A stretch of 64,000 nucleotides of DNA. It comes from Chytriomyces cf. hyalinus JEL632. Lineage: Eukaryota > Chytridiomycota > Chytridiomycetes > Chytridiales > Chytriomycetaceae. The stretch covers positions 206,497-270,496 of the forward strand of contig JAIWWG010000047.1 of the NCBI GenBank assembly GCA_025435555.1, written 5' to 3'. The notes under the pieces are model-generated. The model searched no databases. It was not told the origin of the DNA and worked only from the letters and a program-made list of their open reading frames with translations. Below, piece by piece: positions 15,167 to 53,107 of the stretch (positions within the stretch are counted from its first letter, which is position 1; each line of letters starts with the position of its first letter). A program made the translations under genes and the position numbers.

Positions 15167-16417
15167 TTACATGTTTGACACACTGTTTGCTTCGGTTTCG
15201 CTCCGAATCTGCTGCCACAAAAACGTTTGTATTCGCTGCGCGTTCTCTGGTATTCTTAAATCATTCCCTTGCAACGAAATCATGTCCAGCTCCTCCAACT
15301 GCCCCAATTCGACAGGAATTTCGCCCTGCATCTGATTCTCATGAAGCAGCAAGTACCGCAAGTGTTCAAGATTGCCAAATGTGCATGGAATAGATCCCTC
15401 AAGCAGGTTTCGACTGAAATCCAGATAATACGCGTTCCGCAAATTTCCAACTTGTGGGGGCAGATTGCCATTAAGCTCGTTGTTTCCAAGATCGAGCAAA
15501 GTTAATTGATCTAGTGACCCCATTTGTTGCGGTATGCTGTCCGTCAAGCGATTGTCGTTGAGTTTGAGCGAGGTCAGTTGAGATAAATCTGAAATGCCCC
15601 GTGGAATGGGTCCATCCAGCTGGTTGAAACTGAGGTTCAAAACCTTCAAATGAATCAGCTGCAAAAGCTCCGCTGGAAATGGTCCGGACAACCGGTTACA
15701 CGCCAAACTCAGCGTATGCAGGTGAATCAGGTTCCCCAGGCTGGACACTACTCCGCCTTGAAGATTCATATACGTCAAGATGAGGCACTTTAGCTGCGTT
15801 AAACCTCCGACTGCATGCGGCAACTTGCGAAACGAAACACTTGCAGAATGTCGAAACCGGGTACCCATTCGCTTTAACCGAGGGTCCTCCCATTTTATTT
15901 TCGTCAACTTGCTGAGGACCTTTTCTGCATAGTAGGACTGGTATGTTGCTGGCCACATGAACCAAAGCCTGTCGAAATCCGTCATGGCTGTATTTCTAAC
16001 CGTGACTTCCGTTGCAATGTCAGAGTCTGAATCGGATGAGTTGCTGCGTGCGCATTTGAAGGAAAGGGTCTGATCCACGGTGAAAGACAGATTTAGGGCC
16101 GCAAATCCACGTGTGGACAGAGCCGAGTTTGTTTGACGACAAAGACGGCGGAACCTCATAACGTGGGACGGATGGATGTACGCAAATATGAACTGAATGA
16201 TCTCCTGTGGAAGCAGTGTTTGGAACGGGGAAGTTGGCGTGCGGATCACAAAGTGGATGGCCTTCGAGGTTTGATCAGGTTTTAAAGCGGGTTCTTGCAC
16301 AACCGCAGCAGTCACCCTCCTGCTGTAGATGGGAATGAAGGCTGCGACCAGGGTGATTGCAATGAGCGTGAAGACTACACTCAGCGACGTCGGTTCACGC
16401 CATTGCCAGTTGTTCAT
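15167..16417 (-). CDS. membrane-anchored F-box-like, plant-type leucine-rich repeat protein
   Basis: Single exon of 416 residues, ATG 16417. Order: a hydrophobic segment at about residues 11-32 (SVVFTLIAITLVAAFIPIY), an F-box-like helix region at about 68-95 (LLPQEIIQFIFAYIHPSHVM), then from about residue 205 seven or eight 24-residue LRRs of the plant-specific type, for example LDGPIPRGISDLSQL and LEGSIPCTFGNLEHL (consensus LxGxIPxxLGxLxxL). No kinase domain follows. Chytrids often carry such LRR families, and the job is probably ligand or protein binding. It is head to head with SEC6 with only 30 bp between start codons. Whether the F-box-like stretch is functional next to a membrane anchor is unclear. 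Confidence 0.8.
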   Translation of the reverse strand: MNNWQWREPTSLSVVFTLIAITLVAAFIPIYSRRVTAAVVQEPALKPDQTSKAIHFVIRTPTSPFQTLLPQEIIQFIFAYIHPSHVMRFRRLCRQTNSALSTRGFAALNLSFTVDQTLSFKCARSNSSDSDSDIATEVTVRNTAMTDFDRLWFMWPATYQSYYAEKVLSKLTKIKWEDPRLKRMGTRFRHSASVSFRKLPHAVGGLTQLKCLILTYMNLQGGVVSSLGNLIHLHTLSLACNRLSGPFPAELLQLIHLKVLNLSFNQLDGPIPRGISDLSQLTSLKLNDNRLTDSIPQQMGSLDQLTLLDLGNNELNGNLPPQVGNLRNAYYLDFSRNLLEGSIPCTFGNLEHLRYLLLHENQMQGEIPVELGQLEELDMISLQGNDLRIPENAQRIQTFLWQQIRSETEANSVSNM

Positions 16418-21816: not shown

Positions 21817-23253
21817 TTAGGCGCATCGCATGTGACGAGTTATGTCTTTGAGTCCTGCAGTCCTTGCCATACCAGCAATTTGGACGGCTTTTAACAGCAT
21901 CTGCGCACATTTTGCATTGTTGATCGAAGTTTGAAAAATTTGCGAAATTAAGGAAACCTTACCTGGAATCAAAGACGGGTCAAAATCGCGTCTAAATAAA
22001 TAACACAACTCCAGGAAAACCCTTCCTGCGCACATTTGACACACATAATCTTCTCCAGACACTAGAGGAGCTACTCCAGCATACGCTGCCGACGCTGAAA
22101 GACCCGATGACGCAATGATTTTATAGGTTCCCGCGTCCATTTTCGAGATCCCGGAGTCAATGATCGAGCGCAGCGGAATCGAATTTGAGAAGCACATGTC
22201 TTTCAAGCATTGTCGTTCGTAATGGTTATTGTTGAATGCATTGTGAGGAATGTCACCAAACTGGAAGTCTTCGGAGAAATGCAAAAATTTGAGTGATGGG
22301 TGGGCATTTGAAAAGGACCATCTCGAATGACAGTTCAAAATAATTACCTTTCAGCTTCTTGAAGAACTCAAAGTTGACAGGACATCCCCCCGAACTCTCA
22401 AAGTACGCGTTACAAAAGGCAGCAGAGCAGCACTTGCACTTTTGCTCATCAAGCCCGCGATCGGGCATGCACCTTCTGCAACGCGAGCAGAGAATGTGCA
22501 CAGGCTGAGTGGCATCGCATTGAAACCCATCCGCAGAACTATTTGGTGGGCAATGCGGGCAAAGAGCCGGATCGTTCGAATCACTTTCACCATCATCCTC
22601 GTCGTTATCAATATCTTCATCCTCATCATCGTATTCCGCCACATAGGTGGATGCACTGACAACGAGAGGGGCGCTTCCTATTTCTCGTTCGGCATCCAAT
22701 TCGCGAAGCTCGGATCTTGTTCGACTGAATGACGGATGGGATTTCAAAAATGCGTCCACAACCGAATTGAGCTGATGGTTTCGCGCAACTTGCGACACGG
22801 TCTTGCGGCAAACTGGGCAGTCTGAGTGCTGGTTCGTCCATTTGCTGATACAACCTGTTGTGCAACTCGTCAGTAGAGCAGCAAGTCAGAACATAGGCCG
22901 CAAACGCACCAGAACAAAAGGAATGCATGCATGGAACAGCAGAAACGGCTTTGTGGAGAATGCCCCGACAGATTGCGCACCTGTGCGTGCAAAAGGGTCA
23001 GCGTCAACGCGAAAGATTCGAATAAAAACAATCGGATAACAAACGTCAAGTTTTCTTTCATTTCCATATCAGCGTCGTCGTCATCTTGAGCGGTGCTTGG
23101 AATGGGCACAGAAGAGCTTGAACTTGTGGCGACGGGCGGATCCATTCTTGTCTTCTTTGCCGGCGACTGATCCACGTCTGTAGTCCGTGTTTCGTGATCT
23201 TCAGTGCCGCTCTGCGCGGGTAACGACGGTGCAGAGTCTGTTGGGTCATTCAT
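21817..23253 (-). CDS. CHFR: CHFR-like RING E3 ubiquitin ligase lacking the FHA domain
   Basis: ATG 23253 to TAA 21817. The first ~60 residues are disordered and acidic. The RING is assembled across two introns: NLTCAICRGILHKAVSAV, then CMHSFCSGCISKW, then SDCPVCRKTVSQVARNHQL, closely matching the CHFR RING and its downstream NH.LN.LV.A.L. An acidic linker leads to the CHFR cysteine-rich region (CSRCRRCMPDRGLDEQKCKC, AFNNNHYERQCLKDM, EDYVCQMCAGRVFLELCYLF). CHFR is a mitotic-stress checkpoint ligase, and fungal relatives are Dma1/Dma2. The usual N-terminal FHA domain is missing from this model; the upstream minus-strand ORF at 23275..23494 shows no FHA motif. An FHA exon further upstream cannot be fully excluded. 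Confidence 0.8.
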
Positions 23254-24233: not shown

Positions 24234-24479
24234 TCATGGGAATTGCAAACTCCTTGCGGAGAAACCCGTCACAGAGTCCGAGCAAGCAACACGTTTGGTG
24301 TGCGCATACTGACGACGCTCTCTGTCAACAACCAGCTGCTGGAGTTTGGCTGAGCCCAAAGTGCGGTTGTCAACTTTGGACGCAGTATTTGTGTGCAATG
24401 ATAATGCAAAGCGCAGTCGCTTGTGCAAGAATATGTTCAGCGAATTTTTCAACATTTCATTTGTACCAAGCGCGGACAT
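24234..24479 (-). CDS. hypothetical ORF
   Basis: ATG 24479 to stop 24234, 81 residues, starting MSALGTNEMLKNSLNIFLHK with a basic C-terminal half. It might be the first exon of a gene that continues toward 23,665 through an unresolved intron. Evidence is only an open frame with an ATG and reasonable composition. Confidence 0.25.
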   Translation of the reverse strand: MSALGTNEMLKNSLNIFLHKRLRFALSLHTNTASKVDNRTLGSAKLQQLVVDRERRQYAHTKRVACSDSVTGFSARSLQFP

Positions 24480-24515
24480 AGAAATCTGAATGGCAACCAG
24501 CCACGTACATCCACA

Positions 24516-25037
24516 TCAGCTGTCACTTCCAACTGACCAGTCCTTATCCAGCACGACCGTATAGAAACCGACAACTTGACCTGCAATGTCATCGTCTCCT
24601 TTCCTCGCTATCCAAATATGACCCACATAAGTTTCCTGCGTGTAACCCTCTCCCGGTAAAAGAGTCGCATATATGACCTCTGCTCCTTCAAAAGAACTCC
24701 AATAGATGGTGATTGTGTGGTCAAGGCTGTTTCTAAACTGCACTGATGCCGCTTCTGTTGGAACCCCGGGAGTTGGCGGAAACTTGTTGCATGGGGCAAA
24801 GATGGTAAATGGGGCGCGGCACATGGGGCAATGGCATTGGTTGTTGAGCAGGCACATTTGATAGCATCCAAAGTGCAGGATGTTTCCGCAGCATCCGAGG
24901 TTAAGTAGAGGAACGCCACCGCGCGGGAGCATTAGATCGAAGCATATGCTGCAAATGTCGGACTCGATCGCTGCAGCCATTCTTGCCTGTTCTTTAGAAA
25001 TGATGTTCGTTTGTGTTTTGACAAAGAAAATGTTCAT
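24516..25037 (-). CDS. RING finger fused to a VHL beta domain
   Basis: Single exon, 173 residues, ATG 25037 (an in-frame ATG about 20 codons later is an alternative). Residues ~28-72 form a RING-like zinc cluster: CSICFDLMLPRG, GCCGNILHFGCYQMC, CHCPMC. From ~92 to 160 the sequence matches the beta domain of von Hippel-Lindau protein: VQFRNSLDHTITIYWSSFEG, then YATLLPG, then TYVGHIWIARKGDD. Against human VHL the hydroxyproline-pocket residues W88, Y98, H115 and W117 are all present, and S111 is replaced by Thr. The VHL alpha domain, with its elongin-binding BC box, is absent. Inference: the RING replaces the elongin-cullin-RBX1 assembly, so one chain could both read hydroxyproline and transfer ubiquitin. 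Confidence 0.8.
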   Translation of the reverse strand: MNIFFVKTQTNIISKEQARMAAAIESDICSICFDLMLPRGGVPLLNLGCCGNILHFGCYQMCLLNNQCHCPMCRAPFTIFAPCNKFPPTPGVPTEAASVQFRNSLDHTITIYWSSFEGAEVIYATLLPGEGYTQETYVGHIWIARKGDDDIAGQVVGFYTVVLDKDWSVGSDS

Positions 25038-25111
25038 TTTGGAGGCACAGAAACTTGTTGAGTTCTGTTACTATTTTATTATATCATGTGCAGAATGCAG
25101 TAAACAAACAC

Positions 25112-27797
25112 TTATTTCCGACCAGTGGAAGGAGCTTTCAGCCTGCTACCTCCAGATGGAGCCCCAACACTTGTGCTTTTGCGCCATCTGTCCAATCCAC
25201 TGGGGGCCACGTTTCCGGACAAGTCCTCGGACGACGCAGGTTTCCTCCATTTATCCAAGCTATTCACAATATTTGAGCTCCCACCGCCCCCATTATCCAC
25301 AGTCTCGGCACTTTTGCGCCATCTATCTAAATTCACTGATGGTCCCATACTTGCTGATCCCCAATTCGGGCCATTTTCTCCCTCAGAAGACTGAGTTGGC
25401 TTCCTCCATTTATCCAACCCACCATTCTCCGAACCTTTCGGTTGATGTATACTCGCACGTCGATACCGATCCAGTCCACTGCTGCCAGCACTCAATGGAG
25501 AATCCGCACTTGCTCGCGATCCGGATTCTGGGCTGGTAACATTTGGGGCTCCAGTAGTGGAAGAACGATATCGGTCCAAGCCACCAGTTTTCACAGTCGT
25601 GACAGCTGAGTCTGAATGGTATCGCGAGGACATGACGCTGGGAGGGACCGCTCCACCTCCAAGTCTTGATGAAGCGCCACTTCCACCAGCAGGTGATACA
25701 GCTGCCTTACTTGCAGCGGATAGAGTTGCAGGTCGGCGTGATGAAGCCGTTGCACTCATAGAGCCTGGCTTAACACTGGAAGAGGTTGCGCGAGAAGCGG
25801 GGCTTTTCACAGGGGTGGCTGAAACACCTTCTCCAAATTCCCCATCATTGAATTTTTTGAAAGAGCGTGGCTTGTACCCGTTGGTCTGGCTCGTGTTTGC
25901 AGTGGGTGTCGAACTTAACCGAGGTGACGCGTAGGAACCGGAATTCATTGAGAGCCGGTTGGTGGACGGGCGAACTGACGAGACGCGCGATGCAACAGCG
26001 CTGCTTGTACTGGCTGCAAAATTTATCTTGGTGGGAGTTTTAGTTGGAGTGGCAGTGGCAGAGGGAGCGGCTGATGCAATTCGAGAACGGGGGCCGGGAA
26101 TTGAACTGCCTGGTTTCATAAGCCCGGTTGCTACAGCTTTGACAGTGGCACTCTGCCTCAATTTGGATGCAGGCAGCTTGGATCCACTGGAAGGCGCAGG
26201 CAGTCTCGAAATTCTGGAACCAGAACCGGATGAGCTGGCGATGCTCAAGTTGGAGTTTGTGCTAACGCGTTTGCTGGCATCTGGAAACTCCTTCTTCCCT
26301 TCTGTCAAATGAAGCAGGGTTTGAGTTGATAGGAGTGAAAATGACATCCCGCCGCCACCACTACCGGGTCCCAAAACCATCGATGGAGTGATTGTATCAA
26401 GCGAAGCGAGACTGCCGGAACGGTTGTTGCTTGAAACCTCAGAGAGGGTGTCCATACCTGAATATTTCCCATTTCCAGCAGCATCCAGAATCCGTGTGTT
26501 GTATGCAGCCAGCATCCATAACTCATTGGAGTCGATGGCGTAATCATTGACGCGGGTTGAGGCTGTTGAAGTTGTTGGGCTCATGAGCTCTGGTGGCTGG
26601 GCGCCGACAGCTGCCTGCAGCTCGACGGCATTAAACATACATTCCAATTCTTCGGAGCGGGAAGAGTCGAATTTTACAAGATAGCTGTTGATGATGTTTG
26701 TACAGCCATGGAGGGCAAGGAATTGAAGGGGGGCGGACACAGCTTTTCCACACAGCGTGTTAATGAGCAGCTGAATGATGGATGTTGAGAGCCGTACGCA
26801 TCCTGACAATGACAGATTTCGCACACTTTGGGATTGATGGCAGTTTTGAATGATTGAATACAGCGACAAGTCTGTGATCATTGAAACCAGCGACAAGTCC
26901 AAGGTTTCCAAATTGCTGCAAGATTGAGAAATGCGTATAATGCAGTCGTCTGTTAGAGACGAGCATCCCTCCAGTCTGATTGTTGCTAGCTGCGGACATG
27001 CAAGAGCAATAAAGCGGACATGGACGTCTGAAGCACCGGAATTTTTCAGGTTCAAGGTTTTCAATGGACGAGTGAATGTTTCGAGAGGGCTGAAGGATAC
27101 TGGAGCCTGCGAAGGGGCAGCGCCTTCCATGACCAGTTTGGTTATATTGGGTAAAGATTCAACCAGGGTGACAGCTGAAGCCACTGTGACTAGCGAGTAC
27201 GATAAATCAACCGTGGACAATTTGCGACATGAACTGCAGAGAGTTTTGATGAGCAGATCGGTTATAGGGCATTCTCTGAGTGAGAGATGGGTGAGTCTGT
27301 GAGCATTGTCCGCCAGCGACTGAGCGAGAATGTTCGAGGCCATCGGAGCAGCGTTGAAAGAGAATGAAGTGAGCATGGGGCACAGCTGGATGAGCGTATC
27401 CACGTCCCCCATTTCGAGGTCCGCTCCCACGTGCCCGTTTCCACCCTTTTCCGAATCAAACTCCCCGTCAAATCGAATGGCACGCACAAGCATTGCATAC
27501 GGCAACATTGCGTTGCCATCGAGCAGAGTGGCCGCAATCTTCTGATTCGTGGGATCCAGAATACGGTACAACAAGCCCGCGCCTGCCTGAAGCCACCGCC
27601 GGTTCACCACCAGCAAAGACGCAATCATATGCGTGGGGATATGCTTTAAGATCTGCTGGATGGCTCGCACGGGAAGATCCCGTGAGAAGTCTGAGAGCAA
27701 GCGTTGATGATAAATGAGGTCAATGACAACTCATCAGCGGCAATGCCAGGCACTGAAACGCACCATTTACAATCATGGATCCCTGTTTCGGCACCAT
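25112..27797 (-). CDS. F-box / leucine-rich repeat protein with a repetitive C-terminal tail
   Basis: Two exons: 27797..27764 (MVPKQGSMIVN) spliced over a 73 nt intron to 27690..25112. The junction restores phase and completes an F-box (RDLPVRAIQQILKHIPTHMI, VVNRRWLQAG). Residues ~110-360 are cysteine-containing LRRs of the AMN1/GRR1 (FBXL) type, for example LATIRLEGCSSLTDDCIIRI. The final ~450 residues are Ser/Thr/Ala-rich and disordered, ending in six copies of a short [GNS]-L-D-[RK]-[YW]-R motif. The expected role is substrate adaptor of an SCF ubiquitin ligase; the tail may bind a partner or the cytoskeleton. Total about 870 residues, longer than most FBXL proteins because of the tail. 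Confidence 0.82.
25175..25582 (-). repeat. six-fold LD[RK][YW]R peptide repeat in the F-box protein tail
   Basis: Reading the protein, the copies are GLDRYRSS, GLDRYRRA, GLDKWRKP, NLDRWRKS, SLDKWRKP and GLDRWRKS, spaced 19-35 residues apart by Ser/Gly-rich linkers. The core is invariant for Leu-Asp-basic-aromatic-Arg. The first two copies carry Tyr and the last four Trp. Confidence 0.85.
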
Positions 27798-33329: not shown

Positions 33330-34205
33330 TCAGTGCGTCACAATACGCATGTGGCGGCGCAGCTCTTGGGCTCGACGGTACGCTGCCCCACAGCCTGGTT
33401 CCAGACAGCAAAAAGGCTTGTTTGGACTATGTGTGACTAAGTGAGACTCAAGATGGTGCTTTCTTTTGAACGTCTTGACGCAGTTTGGCATTGTGCACAC
33501 GTACTTGCCCAGCCGCTGCTGCTGCTGCTGCTGCAGAGACTCGCCGCTGGTTGAGTTTGTTTCGCAGTCCGCCTCAGGGATGGGTGGGGCGGAGGGACTG
33601 ATGTGCTGCTGAAACTGATGTTGCGTTTGTTGGACGTATGGGTGCTGGCGCTGGAGTTGCTGATAATGGGGCTGGTGGTGGCCAATGTGGGCGTGCGTCA
33701 TGTTCATTCTGTGAGGGTTGAGTGGAGACACGGGCCGAGGAATATCAGAGATGTACGAAGGTGGCTGCTTGGCAAAGGCCGTGACTGGCTTTGGGAACTG
33801 GTAGGTGGCATGAAGAGATACTGAAGAAGGAAGTGCGGTGGAAGGGTATCCGATAATTGGACTTGTGCTCTGACTCTGGTTGTTGTGATTTTGGACTTGG
33901 CTTTGCTGGTAGCTGACGCTCACGATGCTCGTCCTCCGGCTGCTTTGAAGAACAAAAGGCGACTGGAGACTAGGTGTGCCTGGCGGGGACGCATATTCTT
34001 TGAACATTTCGCTGATGCTGGGAAGTTGGATATGCTGGTTGTGGATGGGGTGTTGTTGTGATGACACGGCTGGAAAGATTGGGGAAAGCTTTTGCACTGG
34101 AGGAAGGAGGGTGGCAACGTTCATGGAGGCGGGCAGACTGTCTGATAGATGTTCCGGCTGGTGCATTACGGTGACGGCGTCGAGGAGGGCATTCAAAGCA
34201 GCCAT
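33330..34205 (-). CDS. two-finger C2H2 zinc-finger protein (array relative, opposite strand)
   Basis: Intronless, 291 residues, ATG 34205 to TGA 33330. N-terminus MAALNALLDAVTV, an amphipathic opening like that of three genes at the far end of the array. The middle is disordered and rich in Gln, His, Ser and Pro. Two C-terminal fingers: YVCTMPNCVKTFKRKHHLES with HLVTH, then FCCLEPGCGAAYRRAQELRR with HMRIVTH. The spacing C-x4-C-x12-H-x3-H then C-x4-C-x12-H-x5-H is that of the array genes. Likely a sequence-specific DNA-binding regulator. It lies about 9 kb from the array, separated by four unrelated genes. Confidence 0.85.
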   Translation of the reverse strand: MAALNALLDAVTVMHQPEHLSDSLPASMNVATLLPPVQKLSPIFPAVSSQQHPIHNQHIQLPSISEMFKEYASPPGTPSLQSPFVLQSSRRTSIVSVSYQQSQVQNHNNQSQSTSPIIGYPSTALPSSVSLHATYQFPKPVTAFAKQPPSYISDIPRPVSPLNPHRMNMTHAHIGHHQPHYQQLQRQHPYVQQTQHQFQQHISPSAPPIPEADCETNSTSGESLQQQQQQRLGKYVCTMPNCVKTFKRKHHLESHLVTHSPNKPFCCLEPGCGAAYRRAQELRRHMRIVTH

Positions 34206-41715: not shown

Positions 41716-43219
41716 ATTTCAAATCGCCAACGCGGCAAATCCCATCTGTCGGCAGCCACCCGAATTGCAATAAACGCAGCCTCAAGTCGCTGTCGGAAAG
41801 TGCGAATTAAAAATCTATTTATGTTTGGTGTCAAGTCAGGTGTTCAAATAAAATTGACTCCGCCCCAAAGCCATGTTCACCTGCACGTGAACTCCGACGT
41901 CTCTCCGCCAGGCAACGCGCTAACGCGCTCACCATAAGCTCAATAAAGCTCTGAGTTATGCACCCGTGCAACTCCGTGCAACGGATCATTTCATGAACAA
42001 ACATCAAAACGAGGATCAGCCCGAGAGAACATCAGCACATTTGCTTTTGCAACCAAAAATATAACCGCACTCTATCAACATACTGAATCTGCTTTGAAAG
42101 CTGCGAGCGTTTGATCGTGAGAATAGTTGCCGAAATGTGTCAATTTTACCTTTCACCCCACTCACTGCAACGCGTTGCTTTGCCCTATTGCACGTATTCA
42201 ATCCTTGCCATGCCGTGTCTGAGTTTGGTTATTCCAAGACTGCCTGTGATGAACCAATCTCAGAGCCAGAAGTTTTTCAAGGACGACCCGCCTTTCCACA
42301 GGTATTCAACCTAGCAAGTTTCTGCATTCGGCGCTGGAAACGCGGCTTCATCAGTTTCTAAGGCTGTTGGCGAAATACACAGCCCACAAGGCTGCAAGAG
42401 TGAATCTCAGCCCTTATTCAAGTCTGAAGCACCCACGTCAGCTGAGCGTGAGTATACTTGTCACTCCCCCTCTGAACAGTCCGTCGAACCTTATTCAATC
42501 TCTAAGCGTCGTTCCCCCCGTTGGACGTGACATGAGCGTGCGAGATTTCAGCGGCAAGCCCGCGGCAACCCAACCACGAAGACCACTTCAGTTTGAAGTG
42601 GGGACGATAAAGACGATCGGACTTGCGGAGATACGATTATCCGGTGTCCGGTAAAGCATTTTTGAGGAACGATCACATTAATCGCACGTGGTCGCGCTCT
42701 CCGACTCTTATCCCTTTGGTCTGAAAGCTTCCTGGGATGCAGGTCCACATTTCGGCGGTTGCGAGCATGTGCGGACATGAGGGTGGGGGTGATATGGACC
42801 CTCAGTGCTTGCAGCCACAGGGAGAGAATGCAAGCACGTTACGGAATGTAAGACACTTGCTTTAAAGGGAAGGGGGTGCGCAAATCAAGAAGCAGCAAAT
42901 TTGTCAGACGCCGTTTATTTTGTTACATCACGTGGCACTTGACCCAAACGCGGAACGCGTAACCGAGCAACAGCGCGTGCATTTTTTAGCAAGGTTTCAG
43001 GCGCGACGGTCGGCACCTACAGCGCCCCAACTCGCCATGTTCGTTTGAGAGAAAGCAAACGTAAAAATGCATAAATTGGGGGCATTGCCCAATCAAAAAT
43101 CAAAATTCATGTTACACAAGAGTGTTTCTTTCGGCCAAGGCATTCAAACCCAGCCCGACAAAAACAAAAAAGAGCTGCAACGAAATCAACCCAAAAAAAA
43201 CTGAACACACAAAAAACAC
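41716..43219. other. 1.5 kb region before the zinc-finger array
   Basis: Contains three CACGTG sites (41884, 42685 and 42929), a coding-like open stretch at 42253..42654 listed separately, and an A/C-rich, G-poor leader of about 90 nt before the first array gene at 43220. No other gene was seen. Confidence 0.4.
42253..42654 (+). CDS. coding-like open stretch without a clear start
   Basis: An open frame of 133 codons with no early ATG, ending at TAA 42652. The first third looks like real protein (FLHSALETRLHQFLRLLAKY, then TAHKAARVNLSPYSS); the last part is less convincing. An internal GTGAGT...CAG segment of 33 nt at about 42,450-42,482 is in frame. It may be an exon whose first exons lie upstream near 42,110, or chance. 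No family recognised. Confidence 0.25.
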   Translation, partial: TNLRARSFSRTTRLSTGIQPSKFLHSALETRLHQFLRLLAKYTAHKAARVNLSPYSSLKHPRQLSVSILVTPPLNSPSNLIQSLSVVPPVGRDMSVRDFSGKPAATQPRRPLQFEVGTIKTIGLAEIRLSGVR

Positions 43220-44127
43220 ATGCACCAGCCACACATCATCCCTTCATCTGCATCCTTCTCCCTCGATCTGCTCGTGGCCGCCGCGACCATGCATGCTGCT
43301 CCTGTCGCGGAGAGTGGCTTCAACTTCAAGCACCAGCAGCCATGTCCGACGGTCTCCTCGCACCCCATGTCCATCAGCAATCTTGCATTTGATTACCAAG
43401 ACACATCCGACTCCACAACTGCCATGCCACCGCGAACTGAACAATCAGCTAGTCCAGCGTGGCCGAGTTCCCACAAGCTGCTGCCAACCCTTATTTCGCC
43501 GCCGATCACTCCCATGTTCAGCAACACTAGCATCACAAAATCCCAAAGCTTCCCAACAACAACAAGGTCCGACTCATCCTCTTCTTCTTCATCATCGCCC
43601 ACGAGCACTGCTTTTGAAGACACATGTTCCCGAGAGCCACTCTACACGTCGCACTTGCCCGCCGCCGCCGCCCGCAAACATGAAATGCAAACAGCACGGC
43701 CTTATCGCAGATGTGCACCGTCATTCCAAGAAACCACTCCACCTGCCACTTCAGCACGCGAACTGTCTAATAAGGAGGACGCGGCGAGGCGGAGTGTTGC
43801 TGCCAAGTACATGTGCCGGTTCTGCCCAAAGTCTTTTAAACGGAAGCATCACGTGGAGGTGCGTTTTTGCTTATATAATGGGGACCGTGTTTTTGTAGCT
43901 GGCTGACTGAAGTCCCGCCTCTCGTTTGTCATTCCACAGAGCCACGAAGTGACACATAGCACCAACTATGATTTTGTATGCACGCTGCCTGGATGCACGT
44001 CAAAGTTCAGGTTTGTGTTGGTCTTTTCTTTTTTATTCCACTGACAAACTGGACGCTGAACACTCTTTTTGTTTTCTTTAGACGAAACCAGGACTTGCTG
44101 CGTCATTGGCGCAACGTCAAGCACTGA
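43220..44127 (+). CDS. two-finger C2H2 protein, array gene 1
   Basis: Exons 43220..43858, 43940..44010 and 44082..44127, 251 residues. An internal motif MSISNLAFDYQD at about residue 50 is related to the MNISNLID motif of later genes. A long Ser/Thr/Pro-rich middle includes a run of nine serines. Fingers: YMCRFCPKSFKRKHHVESHE, split by intron 1 right after the histidine-rich helix start, and FVCTLPGCTSKFRRNQDLLR with HWRNVKH, split by intron 2 inside the FRR codons. Finger 1 has the shorter C-x2-C spacing. Same-strand neighbour of all other array genes. Predicted DNA-binding regulator. Confidence 0.85.
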
Positions 44128-44697
44128 TAAAAAAAACATATTCGATTTGTAATTTTTCATTAAAATCCGTCATTTCACTTTTGATCATAAAAAAAACGTG
44201 GGACGCCCTTCCTGGTGAACTGTGCGGACCCAACCCCATGAAGCCGCATGAAGCATATATCAGCGACAGACACTCGTGTCAGCTCGCATAGCATAGCAGC
44301 GAGCACCTGTGTCTGTGCTTGCAGGATTGCTGTGAGTTGCGGGGGCATAAACGCAGCCGTCAAACATCCATGCTGGAACATCCAAGACACTTCCATGGCT
44401 GTCACTACTGTGTTATTGGGTAATGAGCAGGGTGCAAAAATATGAAATAAAAATTGGAATGAGTGGGTTTTTGAACCCTCATTTTGTGCAATTGAAGGAA
44501 GGAAGGTGCCGCAAAACAAAAAAATTTGAACAAGACATCACTCAATTGTCCACCAATACTTGCCAGCAAATTCCCAGTTCTTCCCCCCCTCCCGCCCAGG
44601 AAAGGGTTGAAGAGCATAAAACAAAAAAAGGAAGAAAGAAAGGAAACCACCCTCACACGCGACCCTTGAACACGCGCTCGCAACGACGTCCATAGAC
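44128..44697. promoter_or_regulatory. upstream region of array gene 2
   Basis: 570 bp without a coding frame. It contains AGCATAGCATAGCAGC near 44,288 and an A-rich stretch with GAGCATAAAACAAAAAAAGG about 90 nt before the start, which could serve as a TATA-like element. Confidence 0.3.
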
Positions 44698-45377
44698 ATG
44701 CCAAGAACCCACAGCAGCAGTAGCAGCAGCAGCAGTAGCAGCAGCAGCAGTAGCAGCAGCAGCAGTAGCCATATTATGAATATATCAAATCTGATTGACC
44801 CTCCCGACGACGATCAACAACCGCCAGAAGCTCAAGTCCTGTCTAAACGTCCTGCCGCACACCTGCCCAGCAAAACCCCGCCACGCTACCAAAAACTATC
44901 GCATTTCCCCGGTCAAAGAAACGTCTCACCCAATACGTTTTGGAGTAGCGGGCTTGTTACTCCATCCGTGTCTGCCCGTTCTTCGCCAACACCGCAAATC
45001 AATTCCCTGCCGGCAAAAAGTGTCTCGTCGTCCATAAAACAAAAAAGCGCACCCCCATTCACTTGTTTGACATGCTACAAGTCCTTCAACAGAAAACATC
45101 ACTTGGTAAAGTACATTCATTAAAATTCTCTTGAATCCCACTCACTGCTGACACAAAAAAAAAATGAACTCCCCCAATGCACAGCTGTCGCATATGGTGA
45201 CACATTCAAATGAATATAAATTCGTGTGCACGATTGGGGACTGCAAGTCATCTTTCCGGCGGAATCAAGATTTACTGGTTTGAAAAAACTATTTTTCGAG
45301 TGCGCGTTTTTTAGCGCTTGAAACTAAACAATGCAACGCTGATTCAGCGGCACCACAGGAAAGTAAGGCACAACTAA
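44698..45377 (+). CDS. two-finger C2H2 protein, array gene 2
   Basis: Exons 44698..45105, 45185..45277 and 45348..45377, 176 residues. It opens with a polyserine run of about 19 residues encoded by AGC/AGT repeats, then MNISNLIDPPDDDQQ, the clearest copy of the array motif. Fingers: FTCLTCYKSFNRKHHLLSHM (intron 1 between L and L, phase 0) and FVCTIGDCKSSFRRNQDLLR with HHRKVRHN (intron 2 just before the last helix turn). The tiny final exon is needed to complete the second finger; reading straight on gives an early stop. Finger linker is shorter than canonical TGEKP. Confidence 0.85.
44706..44769 (+). repeat. AGC/AGT trinucleotide repeat encoding polyserine
   Basis: Uninterrupted AGC and AGT codons near the start of array gene 2. 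The AGCAGCAGTAGC block repeats with a 15 nt higher-order period. Such tracts change length easily. Confidence 0.92.
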
Positions 45378-45635
45378 AGAAAGACCCAGGTTTCAACCTT
45401 TGCAATAAAAACATTTTCATATATCGATAAAACAACAGTGGAAAGGAGTTGGGGCTGGCAGGCCTTATATTGCCAATGAGGCTGACAACTCCGAGCGCCC
45501 TCCGAACACTTGCTCGGGTTCGAAAACCCAGAAAAAGGTGAACACGGCAGGGTTCAAACCCCTTCCCCCAATAAAAAAAACCCAGCTTAAAACGCTCAAA
45601 TCCCCCCGAAAACAAATACCAAACAAACACACAAT

Positions 45636-46109
45636 ATGAACCGACAATCACCGACACTCAACATGGACCCACGCTTGAACAAACTGGCCCTCCTCGACAC
45701 CCGCATGCAAGAGAGCACTCCATCTCCATCTCCGACAGAGTCTGTACAGTTTCGGTACCCAACGGCTGCAACATCCTCGCGCACAAACACCGTTGCCAAG
45801 CAACTCAGCAAACAGCAGAAGCTACGCAAGACTTGCAAGCAAACCATCATCAAACCTGTTGCCGAATCTGCGCTGCCGCTGCAAATGAAGTCGATCCATA
45901 AAATGTCGATTGCATTCTTGGTTGAAGATGTGGACGACTCCAAGATGATGTACCGCAGCCGGCTGCATTATGTACGGCCAAAGAGCGTACAGGATTCATG
46001 GCAGAGAAGCAAAGGAGGCCCTGAGAATGCGTTGGATGGCAGGAGGACGGCGGCCAAAGTCAAGACGAAGAATGTGGCGGTATCAATGGATCGAACGCAG
46101 CTCTCATGA
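45636..46109 (+). CDS. fingerless array relative with the N-terminal motif
   Basis: Single exon, 157 residues, ATG 45636 to TGA 46107. It contains KMSIAFLVEDVDDSKMM at about residues 89-105, nearly identical in pattern to MKISFLVEDYCQ of array gene 6. It has no C2H2 finger in any frame before or after the stop. The C-terminal part is basic (RRTAAKVKTKNV). Upstream it has the A/C-rich, G-poor leader common to the array. It may be a truncated paralogue that now acts through the motif alone, for example as a competitor, or a decaying copy. Confidence 0.6.
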   Translation: MNRQSPTLNMDPRLNKLALLDTRMQESTPSPSPTESVQFRYPTAATSSRTNTVAKQLSKQQKLRKTCKQTIIKPVAESALPLQMKSIHKMSIAFLVEDVDDSKMMYRSRLHYVRPKSVQDSWQRSKGGPENALDGRRTAAKVKTKNVAVSMDRTQLS

Positions 46110-47144
46110 ACTGGCTTTTTACTTTTGATAACCTCCCTAGATACATAGACACGCATAACCTCCGTTGAACTTATATAAAAAATAAATGTGAATTAGTGAA
46201 AACAGTGATTTTCGTGGACTTGAGACACATTTGATTCAAAGTATTGACACCAGCACGCCTCCCACCTGAATTGCCAACAGCTTAGCAATATTCATGCAGA
46301 TGAATTATTAACTGGCCAGTACATGTGCGCATGATTATGAATCGCTTTCAGACGATATTATAAATGTTAGAAATACGTGCAAGCAACGTGGCAAGGGTCG
46401 AATAAACTTGAAAGCCGATTACAGTCCTGTCGATATTGCTGAAACGTCGAGAGAGAAGGCGATAGCGGTAAATGACGAGGTTGATAATGATACCGCAAAA
46501 AATGATAACGAGCTTTCACATGGGGTATCATTTCTGGCTTTCCCCTTTTTTCCTTTGGGACAAGCAAGTTGATAACAGCGGGGACTGGCTGCTGGTGATG
46601 GCGAATGCTGCGCGCAATGCATGCGTGGGGACACGACAGCGCAGAGCCAGTCCCCATGTGGCCTTTCCCGGGATGGATGCAGAGTGCACGTACCCGGAAC
46701 TCAAGGTCTTATCAACGTGGCGTTATCACGTGTTGGCTCAAACCGTGTGAGCCAATCAAAGTTGTAAAAAAATGGTGCAAAATTGACAACGTAACAGCTG
46801 TATCGATAATGCTTTGGTTGGGCCGCAGCGTGTGCTGCTTGCTGCTTGCTGCTGCTGTCACTCACCCTCCCCCCACCTGTCCAGTCCCGCTCTGGAGCCG
46901 ATGCATTTGCCCCAGTGCTCTCGGTGTCGCTGAGGGAGGACATGGCATCCACCCGTCTCTGGTGACGCAATCTCTTCCCGCTGTTATCTGGGCAGAAACA
47001 ATTTTCCGCTCTTGGAAAACTGTCAAAAAATTCAAGGGCACGTGAAAGAATCATAAAAAGGGACTCTGTCTGCGGATTCACCCACCCCAAGAAGGATATC
47101 AAACTACACCCAACAACAACCACAACAACAACGCCCAGCAACCC
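46110..47144. promoter_or_regulatory. 1 kb upstream region of array gene 4
   Basis: No convincing gene. Two CACGTG sites lie at 46,727-46,732 and 47,039-47,044. TCATAAAAAGGGAC at about 47,053 is a TATA-like element about 90 nt before the start. The leader from about 47,085 is CAAC-rich and almost free of G. Confidence 0.35.
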
Positions 47145-47696
47145 ATGCTGTCTACAAAGAAACACAGCGTCATGAATATCTCCAATCTCATCGACATGGA
47201 CTCAACAACCTCGTGCGATACCCACCACTTCTCAGACGCTTGTCACCCAGACTTGCCGCAGCTTGCTGCTGCTGCCTCTTCATATGCTTCCACGCCAGTC
47301 TACTACAGAGACTCTCTCACCCCACCAACCACTCCATCCAGCTGCAATTACGCAACTTCATGTTACACCCCTCCAAGCGAAGACGCCTCCTGGGTCCAAC
47401 TCGCACCACTCTCGAGAGTCTCCCCCGCAGCAGCAGCATGCAGGAAAGCACCATACTCTGTCCCACAACCCCGCAAGAGCGAGTCAATCTCCGACGTGTC
47501 TGTGAACGATGAGCTTCTTCCATTCCAATGCCCACACTGTCCAAACCGGTACAAGACGAAACATTATCTCGAGTCGCACTCTGCAGTACATTCTGCATCG
47601 CGGCCTTTTGTGTGTACGCTGAGTGGTGGGGCATGTCGAGGTTCGTTTCGCAGGGTGAGCGATTTGCGCCGACACATGAAAACTGTCAAGCATTAA
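47145..47696 (+). CDS. two-finger C2H2 protein, array gene 4
   Basis: Intronless, 183 residues. MNISNLIDMDSTTS begins at residue 10, the same octamer MNISNLID as array gene 2. A Ser/Pro/Ala-rich middle follows. Fingers: FQCPHCPNRYKTKHYLESHS and FVCTLSGGACRGSFRRVSDL with RRHMKTVKH; finger 2 has a two-residue insertion between the cysteines (C-x6-C). The lack of introns where genes 1 and 2 have two suggests intron loss or a retrocopy origin. The stop lies directly after the second finger. Confidence 0.85.
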   Translation: MLSTKKHSVMNISNLIDMDSTTSCDTHHFSDACHPDLPQLAAAASSYASTPVYYRDSLTPPTTPSSCNYATSCYTPPSEDASWVQLAPLSRVSPAAAACRKAPYSVPQPRKSESISDVSVNDELLPFQCPHCPNRYKTKHYLESHSAVHSASRPFVCTLSGGACRGSFRRVSDLRRHMKTVKH

Positions 47697-48195
47697 GTGT
47701 GTTTCGGAGCGGAGTCTGCTTTCTTTCTTCCGACACTTTCTTTCAGCCGTGGTGTTTTTTTTATATCACGGCAATTCTCTCTCTCTCTCTCTCCTGCATG
47801 CGCATCTACAAGTTTTACCCTTACCCTTTTTCGCTATAATTTACAGTGTGATGACCCGATTAGACACACAAACCTGCACAGCAATAAAAACATGAATCTT
47901 TCCAACAACACTCTTTGACTGCACTTGAAACGTCAACATTGCACCAGTAACAGCAGCAGGCTGTACAGCGCCTGATAACGTGCAACAGCATCACCATAGT
48001 ACTACTCTGTGCTTTTACAACTGATAACACAGTTCGCATTTTGTGTGTGCCATGCGCTCCCAACACGTGCGCGGTTGTTATGGGCTTGAGAGGGCGTGTG
48101 TGATTGAAACACGCGGCACGCAATTCCCATGAAAATAAAAACACCGACAACTCTCTCTTTCCCACTCTACACCATTAAAAAATACATCCCCCAGA
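47697..48195. promoter_or_regulatory. upstream region of array gene 5
   Basis: 499 bp, with a TC dinucleotide run at about 47,778-47,793, a CACGTG site at 48,064-48,069 and a pyrimidine/A-rich, G-poor leader just before 48196. No coding frame assigned. Confidence 0.35.
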
Positions 48196-48738
48196 ATGCC
48201 CGTGCCTGACACCCAGCAACTGCATCCAGAACCATACCCCATCATGCATGCATCCACCTATATACACCATAAGGCATTCAACCCAATGAGCATCTGCAAT
48301 CTTGTTGACGCAGGTCCAGACCCAGTCCCAGCAGCAGCAGCAGCAACAACCAATCAAACCAGACGCAGCTTCCCATCTCCCCCCGTGTCTCCCGCCCCAT
48401 ACATTCTCGCATCCTCCAAGGCATCCAACAACAACAACAACAGCAACCACCACCACCACCACGCAGCCGCTACTACCATGTCACCGAGTTTGATCCTATC
48501 GCAACTGAGCCATCTCCACAATGCAAACCTACCTCTCAAGGCCGTGTGTGCCACAAAACCGCCGCGATACGCATGCAACGTGTGCGGGAAAGGATTCCGA
48601 CGCATCTTGTTTCTTCACAAACACATGCAACAAACGCATTTTGAAGAATGTCCGTATGTATGCAATCGGACAGGATGTGGACACATGTTTGGCACGTCTT
48701 TGGAGCTTTCACGGCATGACAGGCAGTTTCATGTTTGA
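48196..48738 (+). CDS. two-finger C2H2 protein, array gene 5 (divergent)
   Basis: Intronless, 180 residues. Motif MSICNLVDAGPDP at about residue 31. Low-complexity runs include polyalanine, polyasparagine and five histidines. Fingers: YACNVCGKGFRRILFLHKHM with QQTH, and YVCNRTGCGHMFGTSLELSR with HDRQFH. It is the most divergent member: the KHHL helix of finger 1 and the FRRxQDLRRH helix of finger 2 are both replaced, so the DNA preference should differ. It is also the only finger 1 with the canonical C-x2-C-GKGF start. Confidence 0.82.
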   Translation: MPVPDTQQLHPEPYPIMHASTYIHHKAFNPMSICNLVDAGPDPVPAAAAATTNQTRRSFPSPPVSPAPYILASSKASNNNNNSNHHHHHAAATTMSPSLILSQLSHLHNANLPLKAVCATKPPRYACNVCGKGFRRILFLHKHMQQTHFEECPYVCNRTGCGHMFGTSLELSRHDRQFHV

Positions 48739-49203
48739 AAAAAAAAAAACAATGGTGATTCTGTTTTTTTTTTTTACTTTTATGGTTTGAAAATACCGAT
48801 ACAGAGAAACGAGTTTAATAATAAACATAGTGAACTGAAAAAAGTAGGAGATGACACGACGTTGAGGAATGCCTCGAAACGGTAATGCGCGTGCCTACAG
48901 CTTCAATATAAATACTTTGCCACGAAAATTGGGGTATGCTTGGTTGGAGTGAGCAGTCAGTCGAAAGAGTTTGCCGAAGCAAAAAGAAAAGAAAAAAGAA
49001 GGAAACAGAACAAGAACAAACAAACATAGAACGACGAGACAAGCAATCAGAGTGACAAACAAAGTCCACTCAAACAGGTTCCAATCAATCCAATCCAATC
49101 CAATCCAATCCCCAAGGTTCAATCAAACCTATCTAAAACCAAATATCAATCAACTTTCACATTCACGCAAACCAGTGCAACAACTGAATCCAGACAATAA
49201 AAA
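48739..49203. promoter_or_regulatory. upstream region of array gene 6
   Basis: 465 bp. An ATATAAATAC element lies near 48,905. From about 49,080 the sequence is a G-poor leader containing tandem CCAAT units (about 49,081-49,110). No coding frame is convincing. Confidence 0.35.
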
Positions 49204-49803
49204 ATGCCGTCTGAGACAGCAGTGCGGAATTTGCCCATCTTCATGCAATCTGCACAACCATCCTGCGAGCGGGATGCACAAAACCCCCTCTCCCAAGACC
49301 TGTCCCAGAGAGACATAAACGTCAACTACGCTTCACCACCAACCTCCGCATGGCACGCCACCAAGTTACCAAAACGGCAACAACACAGAATGAGCATCCA
49401 GTTTCTCATTGACGCAGACGGCAATCCACATCGAGGCAACCCGTTACACTGTGAATTGAACTATTCCCAATCAGCACCAGCAACAGACACGGCTCCCTTC
49501 CAGCCGAAAGTCATCAAGCAGCAGGACGCCTTGCACCACAATTCCAGCATTTCGCATCAACCTCAGCAGCCAGTGTCACCGCCTTCCTCAGACAATCATG
49601 TACGCAAGTACCCGTGCCTGTTTTCTGGCTGCACTTCGCGGTTTCTCCGGAAACACCACCTGGAGAGCCATATAAACACGCATTTATCTCAAAAGGGATT
49701 CAGCTGCGACATTACTGGATGTTCATCTGCGTTTTCGAGGTTACATGACCTGCAGCGGCATAAGCGCACAGTGAAGCATGCACAGCAACTAAATAATAAA
49801 TAA
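49204..49803 (+). CDS. two-finger C2H2 protein, array gene 6
   Basis: Intronless, 199 residues, ATG 49204. Motif MSIQFLIDADGNP at about residue 63, then a Gln/Pro/Ser-rich middle. Fingers: YPCLFSGCTSRFLRKHHLES with HINTH, and FSCDITGCSSAFSRLHDLQR with HKRTVKH, ending with a short QQLNNK tail. Spacing is C-x4-C-x12-H-x3-H then C-x4-C-x12-H-x5-H. Immediately downstream is a TAAAA pentamer repeat. Likely a DNA-binding regulator. Confidence 0.85.
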   Translation: MPSETAVRNLPIFMQSAQPSCERDAQNPLSQDLSQRDINVNYASPPTSAWHATKLPKRQQHRMSIQFLIDADGNPHRGNPLHCELNYSQSAPATDTAPFQPKVIKQQDALHHNSSISHQPQQPVSPPSSDNHVRKYPCLFSGCTSRFLRKHHLESHINTHLSQKGFSCDITGCSSAFSRLHDLQRHKRTVKHAQQLNNK

Positions 49804-50421
49804 ATAAAATAAAATAAAATAAAGTTCAAGACGCTCGCTCGCTGGAAGCCATGTTCGACTTCCAACGCAGGCAGGGTACGACTGCTGCTGTTTCGTTGTT
49901 GGTTGTTGGCCGAACGAGCAATTTTTTGTTCATCAAGAATGGAGATCAATAATTTATGCAAAGCCCAGGTGAAAATAATTTCCAATCTCCACCCATTTTC
50001 TTTTTTTTTTTTTTTTTTTACGTGTTTTTTATATTATGGTTTTTTTTGGGGGTTGGGTCTGTAGACATTCCAGCGGCCTCTTTTTACTTGTCGTGTATTT
50101 TATATCTACATTCTCTGCAGTTGCATCCCCACGTCTGACGCCTGCCTGCCTGGCGTGCGTGCGTGCGTGTCGGTGCAGAAACGGCGAAACTTTCTTTTAA
50201 GTGGCTTTTTGCTTCAAAAATTCATTTAACGCTGCTGCTCATGCTGCTGCTTTTCCTTACCACCCTGACGCCTCCTTTTTTCGTGTGTCTCTTTTTTTTA
50301 ATGATTTCCGACCCGCGCGTTATAAAGAGAGAAGCGCCCTCCCTCATTCTTACACGCCAACAGTTTCTCGGCAATCTCCACCTCCCAGATAACAACTAAA
50401 AAAAAAAAGAGGAAACGCCCA
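49804..50421. promoter_or_regulatory. upstream region of array gene 7
   Basis: 618 bp that begins with AATAA/TAAAA repeats (to about 49,823), has a T19 run near 50,001 and a GCGTGCGTGCGTG repeat near 50,154. TTATAAAGAGAG near 50,320 could act as a TATA element. The last 80 nt are A/C-rich and G-poor, ending in an A11 run before the start. Confidence 0.35.
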
Positions 50422-51280
50422 ATGCACCCTTCAGCGCCTACACCCGTTCAGCCTTACAAAGTCGAGCAAGTCTACTTTACAACAAGATCCTTGTCGATTT
50501 CTCTGGCCCATCCACAACAACAACAACAACAACAACAACATATCTGGACCGGCCATTTGAACCTGCCCTCCCCGCTGCAAACACCAGCACAGTCATTTTG
50601 CGGTGCTTCTGCAAGAGAGTGTATGAAGATTTCGTTTCTGGTCGAGGACTACTGTCAAGTGGATAATGGCACTGCTACCACCAATGACACTCTCGCTGCC
50701 GCCGCCGCAGGAGTACCGGTGTTTGGACTTTTTGACTCGGGCCCAGCGTCGTTGCCGTCACCGACGCATCAAGACACGCAGCACCAGTACAAGCAACCTT
50801 CACCACCGTGCAGCACTCTGCCAAAGAAAACACGTGCAACTCGTCCAACGACCAGCAGCCAAGAAAAACAGACTTTCATCTGCGAAACGTGTTCCAAAGT
50901 GTTTTATCGGAAGCATCATTTGGCAAGGTATGTGTATTTTTTTTTTTTTTTTGAGACCCTTCCTTCTCTGGCTCTTTTTTTGTGTTTTTTTCAAACCCTT
51001 GAAAAAAAAACTTGTTTTTTGCAGCCATCTCGACGCACATCGGACTGGGAAGCCGTTTCGATGCTACGTGAATTCCAATTGCCCGGCAGCATTTCGAAGG
51101 TGCATGCCCTTTTATTTTTAAACCTTTTTTTTTTTTTTTTTTTTTTTTGCGTTTGAATTGTTTGACGCTGTGGACAGAGTGATTGTCAGTGTATCGCTTA
51201 TCCCATTCACTTTTTTTTACCAATCCTTCAGAATTCAAGATTTGCGGCGACACATGCAGAAAGTGCGCCATGACTACTGA
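50422..51280 (+). CDS. two-finger C2H2 protein, array gene 7
   Basis: Exons 50422..50927, 51025..51099 and 51232..51280, 209 residues. It contains a polyglutamine run (8 Gln from CAA codons) and the motif MKISFLVEDYCQV at about residue 68. Fingers: FICETCSKVFYRKHHLASHL with DAH, intron 1 falling within the Ser codon after HHLA; and FRCYVNSNCPAAFRRIQDLR with RHMQKVRH, intron 2 within the FRR arginine codon, the same phase-2 position as in array gene 1. Both introns have long T runs before the acceptor. Finger 2 has a one-residue insertion (C-x5-C). Confidence 0.85.
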
Positions 51281-52099
51281 GTGCAGTAGATATACACGAT
51301 ATTTTTGGGGGGTCTGTACAGATAGGGAAGTAGCGAGTGTAAAAAAAAAAGAAAGGACGGGGTGTGTAACAAGACTTTGATTGTAAAATATTTTTGATGC
51401 GGGCGGTTGTGAGGAATTTGTTTGTGAAGAGAAGGAGAGTTCCAAATGTTGCTGGGCTTCTCAATAAAATAACATGTGCTCTTTTTTATGGCTGGCTGGT
51501 AAATGGCGCGCAGAAGAAGAGCTGAAAGTAATGACGAAATTCGGGGCTCTTTGGGGTGGCGAAGTTGACTTCTGTCTCATTTTCGCGCAGCTGCAAAAAA
51601 TGCAGGGGGGTGCAGCGAGGGCGGGCAAATGAAAATGAGTCGTTTTAAACAATGTTGCTTGTGAAAGTTGGGAGGCAAATTGCAATTTTAATAATGACAA
51701 TGAAATTGTTGTTTTTTTTGCGTAAACAAGGCAAATGACTGTGCAAGTTGCGCCAGTGAAACCCAGCCACTGGTTACCGCAACCGCAGCATGCACTTGAC
51801 AAGCAACCGACACTTGCAAAGAGCGGTGCACATAAATAAGCGCCTGTTTGCGCTGATTAAAAGAGCGAAGCTTTGGCGCGGAAAGCCAATTTTCACCTCA
51901 TCAATCAAATTTTATAAAATTTTAGCAGTCAAAAGTCACCTGTGTGCAACCAACCAACCAATAGAAAAAGTAAACAGAAAAAAGCAAGCCCCAAATTCCC
52001 ACAAGCTGTCGCTCAAGCTGTCACTTTGCTCTGCTGCCCCAGCGCCCTCGACAGACCCAACCACCCAACACCAACACCCCCCCCAACACACACAGCCAT
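51281..52099. promoter_or_regulatory. upstream region of array gene 8
   Basis: 819 bp; CACATAAATAAG near 51,829 and TTTTATAAAATTTTAG near 51,909 are TATA-like. From about 51,940 the leader is CAACCAACC-rich, later CCAACACCAACACCCCCCCC, and nearly G-free. No gene seen. Confidence 0.35.
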
Positions 52100-53050
52100 A
52101 TGCTCGCTCTTAACCATCTCGTGGACTCGGCCGATGACGATGAATCCACCAACCTCAATGCAACCAACTCAGTCGTCACACAAATTTACTCAACCCTCCC
52201 GGATGCGCCGGGACCCCGCTCCGTCGTCTCCCCGAGCAGCCAAATGGGCATCCACTTCATGCTCGAGCACGATGCCGGCGAACCCAGCATTCCTTCACAA
52301 TTTATGAGCCATGTGCGTGAAACGGCGGACATTCAGCTCTCCGATCCAATCAATGAGAATGTGTCTATCTCAACCAACCAGACAGCAGCAACAACAACAA
52401 CCTCACATCTCGCGCCATCCTCCCATCTTCACAAACAGCCTCCATTTTTGCATCCGCCGTACTCGCCGCTGGAAGGGTCAAGCACTTTTCCGATCATGCT
52501 TCAACAGCCTCTTGTTCATTCTTTAAAACTGCCAGCATTCCCAGTCTATAGCCACAGCCAGTTTGCCGAGCATCAGCAGCAACAGCTGCGGCACTTGCAA
52601 TACCCGCAGCAGCAGCGGCAGCCGCTCATTTATCAACAGCACAGCAACCACCACCAGCCAGCTCACGATCATCATGCAGAAACAGAACACCAGCCACACC
52701 TTCAATTCATTGACATACACAGCGCCAGTGACAGCAACAACAATAATAACAATAACAACAAGAGCAACCGCCACCCGATCCTTCATCAATCCACATCGAG
52801 CGCCAGTCAGTCCCCTCAACTAAGTCAAATCCCCGCAAATTCACCATCCCCGCAACCGGCACCGCACAAGCGCTTCACATGCACGATGGAAGGTTGCGGG
52901 AAAGTGTTTTTTCGGAAACACCATCTTGTCTCGCATCTTGTTTCACATTCAGAGGCCAAGCCCTACCGATGCACCATCCCAGGGTGTGACGGCACGTTTA
53001 GAAGGAATCAGGACTTGCGACGGCATTTACGGAAAGTGAAGCATGATTGA
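52100..53050 (+). CDS. two-finger C2H2 protein, array gene 8
   Basis: Intronless, 316 residues. It opens MLALNHLVDSADDDES, a variant of the array motif placed at the very N-terminus, and has a second related stretch MGIHFMLEHDAG near residue 49. The middle is Gln/His-rich with an 8-Asn run. Fingers: FTCTMEGCGKVFFRKHHLVS with HLVSH, and YRCTIPGCDGTFRRNQDLRR with HLRKVKHD. Finger 2 shares IPGCDxxFRRxQD with array genes 9 and 10, so these three adjacent genes are probably recent duplicates. Confidence 0.87.
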   Translation: MLALNHLVDSADDDESTNLNATNSVVTQIYSTLPDAPGPRSVVSPSSQMGIHFMLEHDAGEPSIPSQFMSHVRETADIQLSDPINENVSISTNQTAATTTTSHLAPSSHLHKQPPFLHPPYSPLEGSSTFPIMLQQPLVHSLKLPAFPVYSHSQFAEHQQQQLRHLQYPQQQRQPLIYQQHSNHHQPAHDHHAETEHQPHLQFIDIHSASDSNNNNNNNNKSNRHPILHQSTSSASQSPQLSQIPANSPSPQPAPHKRFTCTMEGCGKVFFRKHHLVSHLVSHSEAKPYRCTIPGCDGTFRRNQDLRRHLRKVKHD

Positions 53051-53107
53051 AGGTCTCTCTTTTTTCGCTTGGATACGATGATACACAATAAATTAAGAGC
53101 TGTACGA

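Follow-up and report, generated by a model that had tools for sequence, protein, structure and literature searches.

A chytrid open reading frame that joins a RING-like cluster to a VHL beta domain and may encode a one-chain hydroxyproline-reading ubiquitin ligase

The stretch of DNA analyzed here, called the window, comprises 64,000 nucleotides of contig JAIWWG010000047.1 from Chytriomyces cf. hyalinus JEL632. It contains an open reading frame (ORF) in which a RING-like cysteine/histidine cluster is followed by a VHL beta domain, and we refer to this as the RING-VHL gene. A previous reading made from the letters alone (the sequence-only reading) had described a single-exon ORF of 173 residues at 24516..25037 without giving a strand; length and position are confirmed, and the strand is minus. 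The features of the gene are:

24516..25037, minus strand: RING-VHL ORF, 173 amino acids, with ATG at 25037, TGA ending at 24516 and no internal stop
24819..24953, minus strand: RING-like Cys/His cluster, residues 29-73, from a zf-RING_2 match, weak matches to RINGs in PDB and the ligand pattern
24756..24818, minus strand: proline-rich linker, residues 74-94, from the sequence
24537..24755, minus strand: VHL beta domain, residues 95 to about 167, from Pfam, alignment, model and PDB matches
24978..24980, minus strand: Met20, in frame and a possible second start shortly ahead of the RING, from the sequence
25038..25111, minus strand: gap of 74 bases between the gene and its neighboring minus-strand ORF (25112-27700), measured to the stop of the latter, from the ORF list

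The gap of 74 bases makes an extra upstream exon unlikely. The neighboring ORF beyond it has an F-box/leucine-rich-repeat look by eye and no Pfam match at 0.001. The RING-VHL frame has the best codon preference of all six frames (-0.014 per codon overall, next frame -0.09). Divided by half, the VHL part scores +0.083 and the RING part -0.11 per codon, and seven reference ORFs range from +0.044 to +0.172. The coding strand of 24300-25240 holds two donor-like GTRNGT sites, one within the conserved Val-Gly-His stretch and one past the stop. A profile search of the whole genome (37.8 Mb, 242 contigs) returned one VHL domain, which is that of the RING-VHL protein.

From alignment and modeling, the VHL half can be assigned firmly, with a real VHL beta fold and the residues of the hydroxyproline pocket kept. 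Pfam PF01847 matches residues 95-149 with an expectation value (E) of 1.4e-7 and 31.8 bits against a cut-off of 21, and a sequence search of PDB with the RING-VHL protein finds human pVHL at an E of about 4e-4. Structure prediction, which the sequence-only reading had named as a check, gave a VHL-type beta sandwich; the block-mean predicted local distance difference test (pLDDT) is 72-94 over residues 101-160 and 55 over 161-170, and among the structural matches listed 50/50 are pVHL complexes. In the alignment, W113, Y123, T136, H140 and W142 take the places of human W88, Y98, S111, H115 and W117, which bears out the earlier statement that W88, Y98, H115 and W117 have equivalents here and that S111 is replaced by Thr. 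According to PMC9528729, the side chains of S111 and H115 hold the 4-hydroxyl in human VHL, and it is to these that Thr136 and His140 correspond. The positions that flank the peptide in human VHL (P99, R107, I109 and H110) are changed, and a HIF-like substrate is therefore unlikely.

Compared with pVHL, the substrate receptor of CRL2-VHL, the RING-VHL protein shares the pocket and the fold of the beta domain, which aligns with positions 68-162 of the human protein; identity is 27% over 75 residues. It differs by its N-terminal RING-like domain and by the changed flanking peptide contacts. Its frame also contains neither an alpha domain nor a BC box, as it stops after the beta domain and has no Cys past residue 83. 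The VHL_C profile had 0 matches in this genome, and since no positive control matched either, this leaves the absence of an alpha domain elsewhere in the genome unproven.

The sequence-only reading had also pointed to a search for a prolyl hydroxylase in this genome, and an oxygenase exon of the prolyl hydroxylase domain (PHD) type is indeed present. Matches to PF13640 (2-oxoglutarate-Fe(II), 2OG-Fe(II), oxygenase) lie at four places. Locus L017 encodes an Ofd1/Tpa1-type protein (Ofd1_CTDD match), while L018 (G000:C185:120665-123844) lies on the same contig as the RING-VHL gene, 109 kb away. The L018 exon covers the C-terminal half of the oxygenase (profile 35-98 of 98), and its best solved relative is EGLN1 (E 1.1e-8). 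This EGLN/PHD-type exon continues in one open frame into an N-acetylglucosamine (GlcNAc) transferase of PF11397, the family that includes the GlcNAc transferase acting on the hydroxyproline of Skp1. The frame looks like a fusion of the Skp1 hydroxylase with the first Skp1 glycosyltransferase, and the exon upstream contains the string HKDASP, presumably placed where PHD2 has HxD. A second PHD-like exon (L020:1501-1707) has 4iw3 as its nearest solved relative and a Tyr at the place of a 4iw3 His that we assume to be the metal His. This exon is possibly inactive and, because of the Tyr, was not counted as an active hydroxylase.

The genome also holds eight matches to the Skp1 family PF01466 (L023-L030; G000:C215, C182 and C1), copies or fragments of Skp1 that form two local groups plus a single additional site. 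Six of these loci were inspected for their ends; four end in FTPEEEEQIRKENEW, and the C1 copy, covered by two loci, ends in FTPEEEEQIRRENEW. The Skp1 genes thus retain the tail FTPEEEEQIR(K/R)ENEW with a target-type proline, and we take this tail to correspond to the Dictyostelium stretch that includes Pro143. Taken together, the L018 oxygenase/transferase and the Skp1 tails make cytosolic prolyl hydroxylation likely in Chytriomyces cf. hyalinus JEL632. What is shared with the Dictyostelium Skp1 pathway (PhyA/Gnt1) is the Skp1 tail and the PHD-type oxygenase exon with the PF11397 transferase, here in one frame. In Dictyostelium, Pro143 of Skp1 is hydroxylated, but hydroxylation does not turn Skp1 into a degron, and the excerpts of the report name no VHL reader (PMC3515798). 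The description of this fungus as an organism without HIF is in line with a PAS_11 search of the genome, where both of the 2 matches fell below the cut-off (best 17.4 bits vs 25), but this single test is weak evidence on HIF.

The N-terminal cluster has the ligand layout C29-x2-C32-x16-C49-C50-G-N52-x2-H55-x2-C58-x11-C70-x2-C73, followed by Arg74. From this layout, eight positions for two zinc sites could be filled by C29, C32, C49, C50, H55, C58, C70 and C73. The cluster ends in CPxCR, as active RINGs do. Matches to RINGs in PDB are weak and include RNF13 and, with the RING half alone, AMFR (E 0.0023-0.0055) and RBBP6 (2yur, E 0.29). As the zf-RING_2 score is below the detection threshold, we call the cluster RING-like. 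The RBBP6 RING has the formula C-X2-C-X11-C-C-X-[NS]-X2-C-X2-C-X12-C-X2-C, described as C4C4 or C3NC4, and RBBP6 is an identified ubiquitin ligase (E3) (PMC1360078). The chytrid cluster resembles it in the Cys-Cys-Gly-Asn order and in how the later ligands are spaced, but has His55 for a Cys, a loop of 16 rather than 11 residues behind the first pair and one of 11 rather than 12 ahead of the last pair, and the protein is without the DWNN domain and zinc knuckle of RBBP6. An RBBP6-like ligand pattern, composed after the sequence had been seen, was found in 1 of the 524 stop-to-stop ORFs of at least 60 residues in the window, the RING-VHL ORF itself, and in 0/100,000 shuffles of the RING-VHL protein. 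The RING-type cysteine cluster of the sequence-only reading holds as a RING-like Cys/His cluster with a weak match to AMFR, but not as a canonical RING. The assignment of the RING half is probable, though less firm than that of the VHL half, and the cluster could recruit a ubiquitin-conjugating enzyme (E2). A RING + vWA protein of the same genome (L016:2-1659) has a RING that is 40% identical over residues 16-64 and carries the usual His, and its first exon alone scores 24.2 bits, below the RING cut-off. This RING is a possible source of the one in the RING-VHL protein.

VHL beta domains are also found in bacteria, in 9/292 genomes of Cyanobacteriota, 3/296 of Actinomycetota and 56/392 of Planctomycetota, counts that take in the centre genomes (those of L010, L004 and L005, respectively). 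We aligned 38 bacterial rows, made up of 11 loci that came up when species genomes of bacteria and archaea were scanned and 27 planctomycete-phylum loci (L031-L060 minus L055, L058 and L032, the last being the same place as L005); L011 and L012 are identical, and L033/L034 almost so. Trp88, Tyr98, His115 and Trp117 are invariant in 38/38 rows and are the sole invariant columns of the 53 compared, a conservation that is partly due to selection, as the patterns used to retrieve the 11 loci include portions of the motif and the other 27 were the highest-ranking among 76 Pfam-profile matches. Position 111 is Thr in 36 rows and Ser in 2, and Thr in place of S111 is therefore the usual state outside animals. 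Because all 38 domains keep the pocket, the pocket alone is not a sign of HIF-like function, and its use as proof of such a function was dropped after this alignment.

Several of the 11 bacterial proteins are, by eye, small with a signal-like start. In L005 and L006 the domain occurs together with DPPIV/S9 prolyl-peptidase domains; both of these were found in 5/10 sampled planctomycete-phylum proteins and DPPIV_N alone in 1/10, the ten being hand-picked from 30 and several of them cut by locus ends. The VHL beta domain stands ahead of DPPIV_N/Peptidase_S9 in L005, L006, L031, L037, L051, L052 and L053, and in another planctomycete-phylum protein (L049:559-2457) the region after it resembles a zinc metallopeptidase, with Pfam matches to ATLF and Peptidase_M90. 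The pairing of a proline reader with a proline-specific enzyme might be the reason that the pocket does not vary in bacteria. A reader of proline or hydroxyproline would suit a place next to a prolyl-peptidase, and this favors a proline-type ligand across the family, hydroxylated or not. The bacterial proteins (Winogradskya, Planctomycetota, Cyanobacteriota) share domain and pocket with the RING-VHL protein, with a best identity of 50% over residues 7-60 of the VHL piece, and differ in being secreted-looking or joined to DPPIV/S9; no RING was found in the 14 scanned with Pfam. One bacterial VHL beta protein has been described from Litorilituus (PMC9002001). In a tree of 40 rows, the RING-VHL protein falls within a planctomycete clade (97/94), apart from the human row, with an end branch of 1.48 over 83 columns; the single human row has 53 residues, and the RING-VHL protein is the only other eukaryotic row. 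Gene transfer is not claimed, given the end branch, the number of columns, the short human row and the lack of other eukaryotes.

The sequence-only reading knew of no description of this architecture, and likewise no natural RING-VHL protein is described among the matches listed in the open-licence literature. An engineered prolyl-hydroxylase-dependent system has been reported in plants (PMC13223302). VHL outside animals is not new, because homologues are reported from Salpingoeca rosetta and Ascomycota (PMC9618697). These have in common with the RING-VHL gene that a VHL-like gene is found in a non-animal opisthokont; the excerpts of that report state neither domain order nor a RING. No NCBIfam family matches the RING-VHL protein, and plasmids gave weak matches to the VHL half only (2 records for the full-length query and 3 for the VHL piece, with E limits set at 1 and 10). 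What we describe is a new combination of two known modules, which InterPro may already list and which may be common among fungi.

What is observed is a single frame with a VHL fold, pocket residues, a RING ligand pattern and no alpha domain, in a genome that also carries a gene for a PHD-type oxygenase. It is plausible, and to us about an even call, that the RING-VHL gene encodes a one-chain hydroxyproline-reading E3. In animals, the VHL domain reads oxygen-dependent proline hydroxylation, and substrate reading and E2 recruitment are divided between pVHL and elongin B/C, cullin 2 and RBX1. In the chytrid protein, the C-terminal VHL beta domain would serve as substrate reader and most likely hold 4-hydroxyproline in the Trp113/Tyr123/Thr136/His140/Trp142 pocket, while the N-terminal RBBP6-like RING would bind zinc and recruit a charged E2. 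Ubiquitin would then be passed to the substrate without elongin, cullin or RBX1, the substrate probably being a cytosolic protein that is hydroxylated in an oxygen-dependent way. The stand-alone, hydroxyproline-dependent ligase of the sequence-only reading is thus retained as regards VHL fold and pocket, the missing alpha domain, the RING-like cluster and the PHD-type oxygenase, but the pocket no longer speaks for HIF-like function. A further step, which we consider improbable, is a complete oxygen-to-degradation circuit outside animals without HIF or cullin. Here the PHD-type hydroxylase would write the mark on a cytosolic protein and the GlcNAc transferase could cap it, leaving only uncapped molecules to be read and ubiquitinated by the RING-VHL protein. 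Capping and degradation would then compete for the hydroxylated protein, with hydroxylated Skp1, or else an F-box partner, as the candidate first substrate.

Several results weigh against a one-chain ligase, most of them in the RING half. The zf-RING_2 match is below the cut-off (E 0.0036; 18 bits vs 27.3), Asn52 occupies the usual position of a His ligand beside the Cys49-Cys50 pair so that the RING is not canonical, and the canonical pattern with His was matched by 0/524 window ORFs, the RING-VHL ORF included. Model confidence for this part is low (pLDDT <50 for residues 1-93 with the VHL alignment; mean 53.2 alone), and its codon preference is poor. In L018, the first metal ligands would be expected in the upstream exon, for which neither Pfam nor PDB gave a match. 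The pocket is equally conserved in bacterial VHL proteins, for which no hydroxyproline ligand emerged here, and, on the alignment, marks the family and not a HIF-like function. Moreover, the RING-VHL order is known here from one genome only. The sole full-length match in that genome is the protein itself, without a second copy; viral contigs gave 0 confirmed relatives among 9 (whole protein), 24 (VHL alignment) and 34 (RING alignment) candidate stretches, and phage records gave 0 matches. A viral origin of the gene is accordingly without support from these searches.

These points can be read in other ways than as a hydroxyproline-dependent ligase. The protein could be a RING E3 whose VHL pocket reads plain proline turns or another modified or terminal residue. 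On this view the aromatic pocket is an old site for binding peptides, and its use by pVHL to read hydroxyproline is a specialisation of animals. The unbroken retention of the pocket in bacteria, its occurrence in secreted-looking small proteins or beside prolyl-peptidases, where proline recognition is sensible without a known hydroxylase, and the grouping with planctomycete rows instead of the human one all suit this explanation. However, Thr136 and His140 stand for the two residues that contact the 4-hydroxyl in human VHL, which is hard to explain for plain proline, and a PHD-type oxygenase is present; we regard a different ligand as possible, but on the unlikely side. Alternatively, the protein reads hydroxyproline without ligase activity, as an adaptor or by sequestering its target, with the cluster as a structural zinc site or degenerate RING. 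The sub-threshold score, Asn52, the low-confidence models and the codon preference of the RING half would fit, but all eight zinc positions can be filled, the CPxCR end resembles that of active RINGs, and L016 carries a related RING with the usual His. RBBP6, with its similar CC-x-N arrangement, is moreover an identified E3 (PMC1360078), and we find a loss of ligase activity distinctly unlikely. The low codon score could also indicate a gene-model artefact or a decaying gene, with two halves that are not one working protein. This is very improbable, as one stop-free frame contains both domains with all pocket residues kept and the only two GTRNGT sites lie in the Val-Gly-His stretch and past the stop.

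Other genes in the window were noted as side observations. At 21817-22798 (minus strand), two overlapping ORFs each hold part of a zf-CRD cysteine-rich domain and are probably one gene with an intron, which we take to be of the CHFR type. An F-box + leucine-rich-repeat protein is found at 15167-16417 (minus strand), and at 33330-34205 and about 43200-55860 a series of ORFs that end in similar C2H2 zinc fingers looks by eye like a local gene-family expansion.

If the RING-VHL protein is a one-chain hydroxyproline-reading ligase, it may amount to the oxygen-sensing degradation machine of animals in a single piece, with two functions of the VHL complex, reading hydroxyproline and recruiting an E2, contained within 173 residues. 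Degradation triggered by hydroxyproline could then arise with no part played by HIF, elongins or cullin 2, and the protein would provide a very small natural scaffold for degradation directed by VHL ligands. Hydroxyproline reading would then extend beyond animals, and VHL reading in fungi and bacteria would be testable with existing VHL ligands.
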